Source: a virus. From it: DNA of 25,851 bases. Shown piece by piece: positions 2,420-5,612 of this stretch. The notes beneath the pieces were generated by a model, which was not told where the DNA came from, did not search any database, and worked only from the letters and a program-made list of their open reading frames with translations. Made by a program: the position numbers and the translations under genes. Every line of letters begins with the position of its first letter. The stretch's first letter is position 1. The DNA is taken from IMG/VR virus record IMGVR_UViG_3300006790_000101, positions 1 through 25,851 of that record; one strand, written 5' to 3'.

Positions 2420-2607
2420 TAGTAGTAATTAATCTCAGCGAAGGAAAATACACCGCATCGGGAAAAACGAAAAACAACACCGTTATTTCAGTTAGCGAAA
2501 AAGAAATTCATACAGTAAAAGATTCATTCACCCGTTTGTATGAAAGTATGGTCATTAGGAATAATTTAGAAAAAGAAAAAATAAGATTTCGATCGAATAT
2601 CGAATAA
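2416..2607 (+). CDS. Small protein coupled to the endolysin
   Basis: This 63-residue protein begins at an ATG that overlaps the amidase stop codon, which strongly suggests coupled translation. Its N-terminal third looks like beta strands (VVINLSEGKYTASG and NNTVISVS), and residues 30-60 are a charged helix. It has no membrane segment, signal peptide or lipobox, so it does not look like a holin or spanin. It may modulate the amidase, but this rests on position alone. It is the last gene before a pair of intrinsic terminators. Confidence 0.5.
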   Translation: MIVVINLSEGKYTASGKTKNNTVISVSEKEIHTVKDSFTRLYESMVIRNNLEKEKIRFRSNIE

Positions 2608-2663
2608 TTTAACTATATTTGATTTCAGCGTTAAGACCATGATGCTTTTCAATTGAGAGTTTT

Positions 2664-2705
2664 AAAAAGCCTCTTTTCTTAAACAAGAACGGAGGCTTTT
2701 TTTTG
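2664..2705 (+). terminator. Intrinsic terminator of the methyltransferase-endolysin unit
   Basis: The 10-base arm AAAAAGCCTC at 2664-2673 pairs perfectly with 2692-2701, and an inner stem TTCTT/AAGAA (2676-2680 with 2685-2689) closes a four-base AAAC loop. A run of T residues follows at once. It sits 57 bases after the 63-residue gene. The A-rich 5' flank mirrors the T run, so it may also stop transcription from the other side. Confidence 0.85.
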
Positions 2706-2737
2706 TAATCTTTTTACTCATTCTTGGTAGGAGTAAT

Positions 2738-2772
2738 AAAAACCTATTTCTTTTTAAGTTATAGGTTTTTTT
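2738..2772 (+). terminator. Second intrinsic terminator in tandem
   Basis: AAAAACCTAT at 2738-2747 pairs with 2761-2770 and is followed by more T residues, with a 13-base loop. It follows the first terminator by about 30 bases. The symmetrical A and T flanks could let it act in both directions. Together the two hairpins make a strong stop before the region leading to the terminase genes. Confidence 0.75.
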
Positions 2773-2842
2773 GTTATAATTGTAAACGGGTTTCGCAGCC
2801 TTTAAAAGATCACTAGCTTAATATACAGCAATAAAGAGATTT

Positions 2843-2914
2843 AAAACCTCTGTAGTTGAAAAAGTTGGGTTATAGTGACACCCTTGCGAAGCTTTGATAC
2901 TACAGAGGTTTTTT
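2843..2914 (+). terminator. Terminator-like hairpin with a 44-base loop
   Basis: A perfect 13-bp stem joins AAAACCTCTGTAG at 2843-2855 to 2900-2912 and is followed by a T run to 2914. The loop of 44 bases is far longer than usual and holds its own small hairpin (GGGT 2867-2870 with ACCC 2880-2883). It could end a short transcript beginning after 2772. It could instead be one state of a switch, because its 3' arm can also pair with 3115-3123 and part of its loop with 2789-2797. Confidence 0.55.
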
Positions 2915-3048
2915 GTATGTTTTTGAGCCCATCAAAATCTACCAACCCGAAAAAAGGGGAGGTTTAAATGTTGTAAATGTCTTTCGATAAACTTGTGACA
3001 TACAACAGCCATTGCGATTATTCCGACGAACTCAACGGAGGTAATTAA

Positions 3049-3105
3049 GGTACGATTAGGTTTATCTTCTACTAGGGGGTAGGGGGTAAACTTGATTTCC
3101 GTACC
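3049..3105 (+). other. Long hairpin with 14-bp inner and 6-bp outer stem
   Basis: GGTACG at 3049-3054 pairs with CGTACC at 3100-3105. After an asymmetric internal loop, 3059-3072 pairs without interruption with 3079-3092 around the six-base loop TAGGGG. Four of the fourteen inner pairs are G-U, so the structure is better as + strand RNA than as a DNA palindrome. The 3' half carries a tandem GGGGGTA repeat at 3075-3088. It is the most stable-looking element of the gap and ends 58 bases before the next gene. Confidence 0.6.
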
Positions 3106-3163
3106 AAAGCTCTTAAACCTCTGAATCTAACATAGGTAATTAACAGTTTTAAACAATATTAAA

Positions 3164-3331
3164 ATGGCGGTAGACACTAAATTATTTATAGCTTTAAAAA
3201 AAATAAAGGAGGCGTTAGAATATGGATTAGACCGTTGCCAAGACGAAAACGGAGACGGAGAGACTCATTTTAATGTATTTTCTAATGCTATTAATTCGTT
3301 AGATGAAATAATTAACGAATATAACCAGTAG
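3164..3331 (+). CDS. Small acidic protein, unknown (55 residues)
   Basis: An open frame of 55 codons runs from an ATG with an A/T-rich leader to a TAG at 3329-3331, five bases before the next ATG. The protein looks like two amphipathic helices (about residues 5-24 and 36-54) joined by an acidic loop, DENGDGETH. The loop resembles an EF-hand start but lacks the closing acidic residue at position 12. There is no membrane segment. The coding-like composition and close junction support a real gene. Function is unknown; the place just before the terminase genes fits a packaging accessory, without direct evidence. Confidence 0.5.
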   Translation: MAVDTKLFIALKKIKEALEYGLDRCQDENGDGETHFNVFSNAINSLDEIINEYNQ

Positions 3332-3335
3332 TAAA

Positions 3336-3629
3336 ATGAACAATCTAAGAAAAAACACCATAAGAACATTAATAACAACAATCGTTAAATGTTTAAAACT
3401 TGTATTGATAGCTGTATGGCTAGGCGCTGTTTATACATGTATATGGGGCGATTATTACATAGGGATTAAAATCGGTTTAACCTCTCTTGTTACTTATATA
3501 TTTATTAACTACATCCATAGGTTATTGCACACATCTTCGCTTATTGAAAAAAAATCAAAAAATAAAGGTAAGTTAGAAGATTCCGGCTTTAACAGTAGAA
3601 TAAACAAGGCTATTAATAATGCTAATTAA
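3336..3629 (+). CDS. Two-span membrane protein, unknown (possible holin)
   Basis: This 97-residue protein has a basic N-terminus, two hydrophobic segments at about residues 20-36 (LKLVLIAVWLGAVYTCI) and 41-60 (YIGIKIGLTSLVTYIFINYI), and a hydrophilic Lys/Asn/Ser-rich tail. The positive-inside rule suggests both ends face the cytoplasm, the layout of class II holins. Against that, it sits before the terminase genes, and another holin candidate lies at 24825. It starts five bases after the 55-residue gene and is followed by a terminator at 3680-3712, so the two small genes form their own short unit. No family is recognised. Confidence 0.55.
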   Translation: MNNLRKNTIRTLITTIVKCLKLVLIAVWLGAVYTCIWGDYYIGIKIGLTSLVTYIFINYIHRLLHTSSLIEKKSKNKGKLEDSGFNSRINKAINNAN

Positions 3630-3679
3630 TACTTAAATTTATATGTTTATTGGATTTTCATTTGAAATTGCGGTAGGTA

Positions 3680-3712
3680 AAAACCCCTCTTTTTATAATT
3701 GAGGGGTTTTTT
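3680..3712 (+). terminator. Intrinsic terminator before the terminase genes
   Basis: AAAACCCCTC at 3680-3689 pairs perfectly with 3701-3710 around an 11-base loop and is followed by T residues. It lies only 22 bases before the ATG of the small terminase gene. Either a promoter is squeezed into or upstream of this space, or late transcription reads through by antitermination. No convincing Bacteroidetes promoter (TTTG then TAnnTTTG) was seen in the gap. Confidence 0.8.
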
Positions 3713-3733
3713 GTATTTTTATTCAAAAAAGTT

Positions 3734-4183
3734 ATGGAAGAAGTAAAAAAAGGTAGACCTACGAAATATAAAGAATCTTTTAATGATCAAGCTTATAAGC
3801 TATGCTTAGCGGGATTTACGGACTCTCAATTGGGGGATTTTTTTGACGTAACAGAGCAAACTATAAACAACTGGAAAATTGATTATCCTTCTTTTTTTGA
3901 GTCTATTAAAAAAGGTAAGGATATAGCTGACGGGGAAGTGGCTCATACGTTATACCAAAGGGCGAAGGGATACAACTTTACGGAAGTAAGAAAAGAGTTC
4001 GATAAAAACGGCAAAGAGGTTGGTAGAACAGAAACCGTTAAGAGAATAGAAAGTGATGCGGCTTCTTTCGGGTGGATGAGAAATCGAAGACCTGATCAGT
4101 GGAGAGATAAGAAGCATGTAGAAGTTGAGGAAGTTAGTAGACCTATTTTAGAAGGGGGAAAAGAACTACCAGAAGATGAATAA
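3734..4183 (+). CDS. terS: Terminase small subunit
   Basis: This 149-residue protein binds the phage packaging site and brings the large subunit to the DNA. The N-terminus (KKGRPTKYKESF) leads into a helix-turn-helix-like domain at about residues 20-55 (AYKLCLAGFTDSQLGDFF then TEQTINNWKIDYPSF), followed by the helical region IADGEVAHTLYQRAKGY at about 65-80, probably for oligomer assembly. The C-terminal FGWMRNRRPDQWRDKKHVEV segment at about 115-133 is a typical ending of this terminase small-subunit type. It overlaps the large-subunit gene by eight bases. Sequence order and neighbours both support the call. Confidence 0.93.
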   Translation: MEEVKKGRPTKYKESFNDQAYKLCLAGFTDSQLGDFFDVTEQTINNWKIDYPSFFESIKKGKDIADGEVAHTLYQRAKGYNFTEVRKEFDKNGKEVGRTETVKRIESDAASFGWMRNRRPDQWRDKKHVEVEEVSRPILEGGKELPEDE

Positions 4184-5612
4184 AATAACCACGACCTCAA
4201 ACTTTGATTTTATACAGGAGTCTTTCATAAAAGCAAAGATAGCTCTTAATAAAGAACTAAGAACAGGAATAGAAAACCCCAACAGGCTTAAAGGTGTAGG
4301 TTTAGAAGGTGCCTCCAGGACTGGAAAGTCTTGGGATATTTCTGTTTTTATATGTCATTATGTATCTACCTACCAAGGCAAACAAATTAACGTTTGTCGT
4401 GATCATCTAACTACTCTAAAGAAAACCTTTTATCAGACTTTAAAAAAAGTCTGGGTAAACTATTTTAAATACCCTGGTCATCACTTCAATAAAACATCTT
4501 CTGAGATTCACTTTAATAATAATATAATCAGATTTGTTGGGGTTAATGATGATATAATGATCTCTCACGGTTTAGAATCCGATCTGTTGATTATAAACGA
4601 AGCAATGGGGGTGGATCAAGAATCCATAAACCAGTTGGAGCAACGGTGTAACGAGTTTTACATATATGATTACAACCCAAGCGAAATCGAAAGTTTTTTG
4701 TATGATAAGGAAAATGAGCCGTCATATAGGCTACACAAAACAATCATATTTGATAATCCCTATGCCCCTTTAAATGCAAAAGCTAAAATACTATCGTATG
4801 CACACCCTGACGTAGATGATTATTCAGTGATAAGAGACAGGAAATGTTTCCCTGATTACACAAAGGAAGAATGGGAAGAATTTAAAATAAAAAATCTGAA
4901 TCGTAAAACAGCTCACAAATATAACTGGGAGGTTTACGGATTAGGAAAAAGAGCCGTTGGGGAAGATATAATTTTTCCTGATTGGGAGGAATACACCGAA
5001 GAACCAGACGATTCAACAATAGAATGGGAGCATGTAGGGGGTGATTTCGGTTTTAAAGCCGACCCTACAACTGCTGTAAAAGTTAAAAAGCAAGGCAATA
5101 ACCTTTATTTACGAGAATTGTTCCATGTTCCCGCTGTAAATCCTCAATGGGCAAAAGATAAGATTGAAAGAGAGAATATTAAAGATGAAAGGGTAATACA
5201 ATTACTAACTCAACCCACAGGAATTGTTAATAACGAAATTTCTGTTTTAATGAAGTATTTCAAAGAAGACAGGAATAGGTCAATATGGGATAAAGCAGAA
5301 GAAAAATCAGTCATTGAACTTAGAAATCTAGGCTTAGACGCTTGGTTTTCAGATAAAGGAGCGGGTAGTGTTGCTTTCGGTATACAAAAAATGCACCAGT
5401 TTAATATATTTATACACAAAAATTCACTACATTTAAAGCGATCATTTTCGAATTACAGATGGAAAAAAGATAGGAATGGTAATTATATTAAAAATTCGTC
5501 TGGGAAAAGAGTTCCTTTGAAAAAAGATGATCATACAATTGACGCTTCCAGATATCCTCTGCTTTATTATTATTGGATAGCAGGCGAAGAAAACCACGAA
5601 AGCGACATTTGA
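4176..5612 (+). CDS. terL: Terminase large subunit (packaging ATPase and nuclease)
   Basis: This 478-residue motor cuts concatemeric DNA and pumps it into the prohead through the portal. The ATPase domain shows Walker A GASRTGKS at residues 45-52 and a Walker B-like LLIINEA at 137-143 with catalytic Glu142; Asn precedes the Glu, which is common in phage terminases. A coupling-type motif YDYNPS lies near 164-169. The RNase H-fold nuclease domain has GDFGFKADPTTAV with Asp290, a second acidic site at Asp393 (FSDKGAG) and Asp456 in DDHTIDASRY. Length and motif order match complete terminases. Its start lies inside the end of the small-subunit gene. Confidence 0.96.
   Translation: MNKITTTSNFDFIQESFIKAKIALNKELRTGIENPNRLKGVGLEGASRTGKSWDISVFICHYVSTYQGKQINVCRDHLTTLKKTFYQTLKKVWVNYFKYPGHHFNKTSSEIHFNNNIIRFVGVNDDIMISHGLESDLLIINEAMGVDQESINQLEQRCNEFYIYDYNPSEIESFLYDKENEPSYRLHKTIIFDNPYAPLNAKAKILSYAHPDVDDYSVIRDRKCFPDYTKEEWEEFKIKNLNRKTAHKYNWEVYGLGKRAVGEDIIFPDWEEYTEEPDDSTIEWEHVGGDFGFKADPTTAVKVKKQGNNLYLRELFHVPAVNPQWAKDKIERENIKDERVIQLLTQPTGIVNNEISVLMKYFKEDRNRSIWDKAEEKSVIELRNLGLDAWFSDKGAGSVAFGIQKMHQFNIFIHKNSLHLKRSFSNYRWKKDRNGNYIKNSSGKRVPLKKDDHTIDASRYPLLYYYWIAGEENHESDI

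Follow-up and report, generated by a model that had tools for sequence, protein, structure and literature searches.

The gap in front of the terminase genes of this virus contains a single strong, strand-specific RNA hairpin (positions 3049 to 3105; hairpin D in the following), and this narrow statement is the robust one. As to its role, we tentatively consider hairpin D a cis-acting element of the late-transcript leader, a reading to which we assign a probability of about 0.4. This is the most likely of the roles we weighed, with a neutral structure coming next, although we hold this ranking weakly. The record analysed here is a virus contig of 25,851 bases (its whole length is referred to as the window), of linear class and probably a fragment. 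Its credible genes lie on the + strand and comprise a cytosine methyltransferase, an amidase/endolysin, small ORFs, terS, terL, portal, protease, capsid and others. Many of the named phages among the best TerL and capsid matches are phages of Bacteroides, Phocaeicola, Parabacteroides and Flavobacterium, and the phage therefore probably infects a Bacteroidota host. In the gap that separates the lysis-side genes from the terminase operon, 556 nt (2608-3163) are devoid of any credible gene, which agrees with what an earlier sequence-only reading had said of 2903-3123.

3049 to 3105, + strand: hairpin D, 25 bp, with a UUC bulge at 3097-3099 and the loop at 3074-3077
3734 to 5612, + strand: terS (phrog_309) and terL (Terminase_3/Terminase_3C), an operon downstream of hairpin D

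The stem of hairpin D is made up of 11 A-U, 8 G-C and 6 G-U pairs, with no mismatches, no A-C pairs and one 3-nt bulge. Folded as a piece (3046-3108), it has a minimum free energy (MFE) of −30.3 kcal/mol (z −6.65) that 0 of 300 local shuffles reached, whereas the corresponding minus strand folds far worse (−13.2 kcal/mol). The stem formed with a pair probability of 0.999 (pair 3065-3086) in all transcript contexts tried, and a scan of the whole record in 160-nt windows returned 2961-3120 as the most structured stretch on the + strand (z −4.98, compared to −1.2 on the minus strand). Measured against shuffled genomes, this stability is significant but not astronomically so, with two of 84 block-shuffled genomes containing a 63-nt window at −29.0 or lower. 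Besides, all departures from a perfect palindrome at paired positions still pair in + strand RNA. These G-U-preserving departures are compatible with selection on RNA, yet the folding program favours such pairs anyway and the G-U bias could alternatively stem from one-sided C-to-T decay or drift on the + strand.

One-sided drift would also fit a hairpin D without a function, whether it arose neutrally, by chance or as an inverted duplication in decay. We regard this as somewhat doubtful. The differences between the arms are those expected from + strand C-to-T drift, about 2/84 shuffled genomes attain a comparable energy, the hairpins further upstream (A-C, see below) are at or near chance level, and no homologue was found in the loci and the viral and bacterial collections searched. 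On the other hand, the local z score, unmatched by any of the 300 shuffles, and the fact that each imperfect pair remains a G-U pair speak against it.

Position had also led the sequence-only reading to imagine a packaging RNA or a cos/pac element, and a site upstream of terS/terL would indeed be in line with DNA-level packaging or regulation. However, we consider this highly improbable and found no positive evidence for it. The structure is RNA-like and strand-specific; with DNA folding parameters, hairpin D folds far more weakly (z −3.1 on the + strand and −1.2 on the minus strand). No Rfam family matched the whole window at the gathering threshold, and a relaxed Rfam search of 2600-3800 returned sub-threshold matches only, none of them of note and none inside 2912-3123. 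As for a packaging RNA of the phi29 type, there is thus no Rfam match, and the terminase pairs a Terminase_3/Terminase_3C TerL with a phrog_309 TerS. Moreover, relatives with the same terminase (52-72% TerL identity) lack hairpin D.

An equally improbable reading is that of a small-gene remnant in the frame 2968-3135, which translates as ML*MSFDKLVTYNSHCDYSDELNGGN*GTIRFIFY*GVGGKLDFRTKALKPLNLT*, with protein-like pieces between the stops. At 0.18 per codon, the codon score of the stretch 2977-3048 lies above the 95th percentile for off-frame sequence (0.114) yet does not reach the lower quartile for real coding sequence (0.228). A weak phrog_6473 match (2968-3036, E 0.005-0.04), which runs across a stop codon, also speaks for a remnant. 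Against it, the frame is interrupted by in-frame stops, tblastn found nothing in phages or plasmids, and there was no Pfam match. Being weak and interrupted, the remnant was not adopted.

The sequence-only reading had drawn the whole of 2903-3123 as a closed, multi-branched RNA domain, in which four hairpins in a row are enclosed by a 9-bp long-range helix. The sequences concerned are as follows.

2843 to 2914, + strand: T3, a terminator-type hairpin with a perfect 14-bp outer stem (2843-2856/2899-2912), followed by a U-run
2903 to 2911, + strand: CAGAGGTTT, the 5' arm of the proposed closing helix, inside the 3' arm of T3 (2899-2912)
2941 to 2963, + strand: hairpin A, weak and context dependent (z −2.1; probability 0.001-0.89)
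2959 to 2967, + strand: GAGGTTTAA, the 5' arm of an alternative closing helix around hairpins B, C and D
2969 to 3007, + strand: hairpin B (z −2.5 for the piece 2966-3010; probability 0.88-0.99)
3016 to 3046, + strand: hairpin C (z −0.8 for the piece 3008-3047; probability about 0.9)
3113 to 3123, + strand: TTAAACCTCTG, which pairs with 2903-2911 (proposed closing) or with 2959-2967 (alternative closing)

An inverted-repeat search confirmed that the 9-nt arms, 2903-2911 and AAACCTCTG at 3115-3123, are exactly complementary. Taken alone, the segment 2903-3123 also folds as drawn (MFE −71.6, z −4.9, 0 of 200 shuffles; z −5.9 in a second run), but its closing helix is not independent of T3. This upstream hairpin (MFE −26.4, z −5.0) has the stable stem running directly into a U-run that characterises an intrinsic terminator, and it pairs with a probability of 0.97-1.0 whenever its 5' arm is present. 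A simple terminator scan did not list it because the loop between its outer arms, 42 nt, exceeds the 3-8 nt which that scan allows. When the transcript was taken to start at 2780 or 2843, the closing helix formed with a probability of 0-0.033. It rose to 0.005-0.22 for a start at 2857, to 0.03-0.85 for a start at 2880 (depending on the 3' end) and to 0.45-1.0 for a start at 2903, so that the closed domain depends on where the sequence is cut. Besides, a long-range 9-bp match was present in 14% of shuffles of 2780-3165. Counting both strands, AAACCTCTG occurs at three sites, all of them in this region and more than the 0.21 expected from whole-window shuffles; two of the three sites are T3's own arms.

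The closed domain is therefore unsupported, since its 5' closing arm belongs to the stronger T3. Nor do the four hairpins carry equal weight: only 3049-3105 is strong, the other three are weak, and 2912-3045, which holds hairpins A-C together, folds no better than its shuffled controls (z −0.55). If any closed domain exists, the better candidate would be the helix between 2959-2967 and 3113-3121, which an inverted-repeat search likewise found exactly complementary and which needs no terminator arm. Its predicted probability was 0.77-1.0 in RNAs spanning 2929-3123 and 2929-3165, and 0.28 in 2929-3340. A closed, multi-branched noncoding RNA formed through either helix strikes us as quite improbable. 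What it has in its favour is the fold of 2903-3123 in isolation, the restriction of AAACCTCTG to this region and the alternative helix in RNAs that start near 2929 and end by 3165; this is set against T3, which leaves the proposed helix 0-3% once the 5' arm of T3 is transcribed, and against the shuffle-level folding of the stretch with hairpins A-C. As things stand, the main lesson is that cutting inside a neighbouring terminator-type hairpin can yield a seemingly closed RNA domain. A Shine-Dalgarno-like GGGGAGG near 2957-2963 was given no weight, as Bacteroidota mRNAs are without such sites (PMC6847099).

Besides T3, further terminator-like hairpins and a candidate promoter element lie around hairpin D.

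2614 to 2621, + strand: TATATTTG, a candidate −7 box (TAHHTTTG) upstream of T1-T3
2664 to 2704, + strand: T1, a terminator-like hairpin, AAAAAGCCTC..GAGGCTTTTTTTT (from inverted repeat and sequence)
2738 to 2772, + strand: T2, a terminator-like hairpin, AAAAACCTAT..ATAGGTTTTTTT (from inverted repeat and sequence)
3679 to 3712, + strand: T4, a terminator-like hairpin, AAAAACCCCTC..GAGGGGTTTTTT (from sequence and fold)

Hairpin D thus follows the closely spaced T1-T3 and precedes T4, which ends about 20 nt upstream of the TerS start codon (3734). T1-T4 share the layout of a stem followed by a U-run. Hairpin D does not: the sequence past 3105 reads AAAGCTCTTAAACC, and the terminator scan had no match there. 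No U-run follows its stem, and it is therefore no intrinsic terminator. A clear promoter for the region was not found, the candidates occurring near chance frequency (10 one-mismatch sites, 7.65 by chance). TATATTTG is the only perfect match to the Bacteroidota −7 consensus TAHHTTTG (PMC6847099) in the noncoding bases of the window, where chance alone would produce about one. Transcription from this box would have four terminators to cross before terS, which hints at regulated read-through. The best candidate past T3 (2893-2923, TTTG-N19-TATGTTTT) was judged weak and rejected, for it breaks the revised −7 consensus (PMC6847099).

T1, T2 and T3, which have no credible gene between them, might also end short RNAs, with hairpin D residing in another, separate and trans-acting small RNA. 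We deem this unlikely, given that nothing obvious ends an RNA after hairpin D, that clear promoters are missing and that Rfam gave no match.

Relatives were sought via TerL, TerS, the downstream small ORF and the capsid. Those of TerL, TerS and capsid are present in viral contigs, but none of them has the RNA; the downstream small ORF had no relatives, and TerL had none in bacterial genomes. In the TerL relatives L002, L003 and L085 (72%, 65% and 52% identity, respectively), the upstream sequence is unrelated and hairpin D is absent, as it is from 75 capsid-related loci, not all of which extend upstream to terS. Patterns of hairpin D, both exact and G-U-relaxed, gave zero matches in viral and bacterial collections, and a T3 pattern search gave zero matches as well. 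Blastn against phages and plasmids yielded matches of chance size only, and single-sequence covariance models run on about 160 phage loci only chance-level ones. Two loci that scored 14-15 bits just upstream of terS, L018 and L007, were rejected as homologues on inspection, the former having an ordinary terminator and unrelated hairpins and the latter a weak hairpin. Strong hairpins or terminators do precede the terminase genes in L106, L156, L011 and L018, yet they are not homologous to hairpin D. We regard hairpin D as an orphan among elements of an ordinary kind.

Several other features were seen in these loci. The block TTAACTTTGNNAC..ATAATTTTTTGGTTAAA is conserved directly before a terminator-like hairpin in L094 (1760-1794), L106 (1412-1446) and L156 (5337-5371); in the latter two it lies ∼40-50 nt ahead of the small gene that comes before terL. 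Block and hairpin could be a promoter-terminator pair before late genes. As in the window (3679-3712), terS in L011 and L018 is immediately preceded by a terminator-like hairpin, with little room for a promoter in between. In the closest relative, L002, palindromic TTGTTTAC/GTAAACAAT motifs are repeated through the gap upstream of terS (1479-1879) and may be protein-binding repeats. Strand-specific hairpins in L106 (1337-1380) and L129 (3220-3300) have the sequence GTTATAACG...ATGGCACG.TTTAAT in common, possibly a mobile or recombination-site repeat. Finally, low-complexity tandem repeats lie upstream of the terminase genes in L002 (1-200, GCAGCGATT/GCAGGTCTT) and L003 (1440-1660, GCTGCTTCT-like), and these repeats encode repetitive peptides.

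How might hairpin D act in a late-transcript leader, the role we prefer? Polymerase would either pass T3 or start after it, giving rise to a transcript that carries hairpin D. The double-stranded hairpin might then shape the fate of this transcript, serving its stability or processing by shielding the 5' end or setting where that end lies; alternatively, it might aid read-through of T4. The stability and strand bias of hairpin D, the terminators at the level of sequence and the order of the genes are direct observations, and we infer both the transcription of hairpin D and any molecular role it may have. The idea of a late-gene leader, which the sequence-only reading had raised for the domain as a whole, fits the position before the late operon, with + strand RNA structure supported for 3049-3105 only. 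In a more specific version, which we rate as very unlikely, hairpins C-D together with the 2959-2967/3113-3121 helix would act in cis for antitermination or attenuation, as an element so far undescribed in Bacteroidota phages, and so allow polymerase to get past the terS-side terminator; were it true, late expression would hinge on an RNA element situated amid multiple terminators. We found little literature on late-gene control in Bacteroidota phages, and if hairpin D acts on the late leader, it would offer an entry to this control.

Among known elements, RNase III-type processing hairpins and 5'-stabilising hairpins occur in phage mRNAs. Like these, hairpin D is a long, nearly perfect intergenic stem on the presumed transcribed strand and lacks a U-run; unlike for them, processing of hairpin D is hypothetical. 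The put RNAs of phage HK022 are cis-acting antitermination elements of about 70 nt with two stem-loops, located downstream of known early promoters (PMC9378689). Here, hairpin C lies next to D (the two span 3016-3105) yet does not rise above chance, a clear promoter is missing, one dominant 25-bp hairpin precedes late rather than early genes, and we claim no sequence similarity. What the two have in common is a highly structured + strand RNA, situated in a phage leader ahead of intrinsic terminators which polymerase has to pass on its way to the genes behind them.
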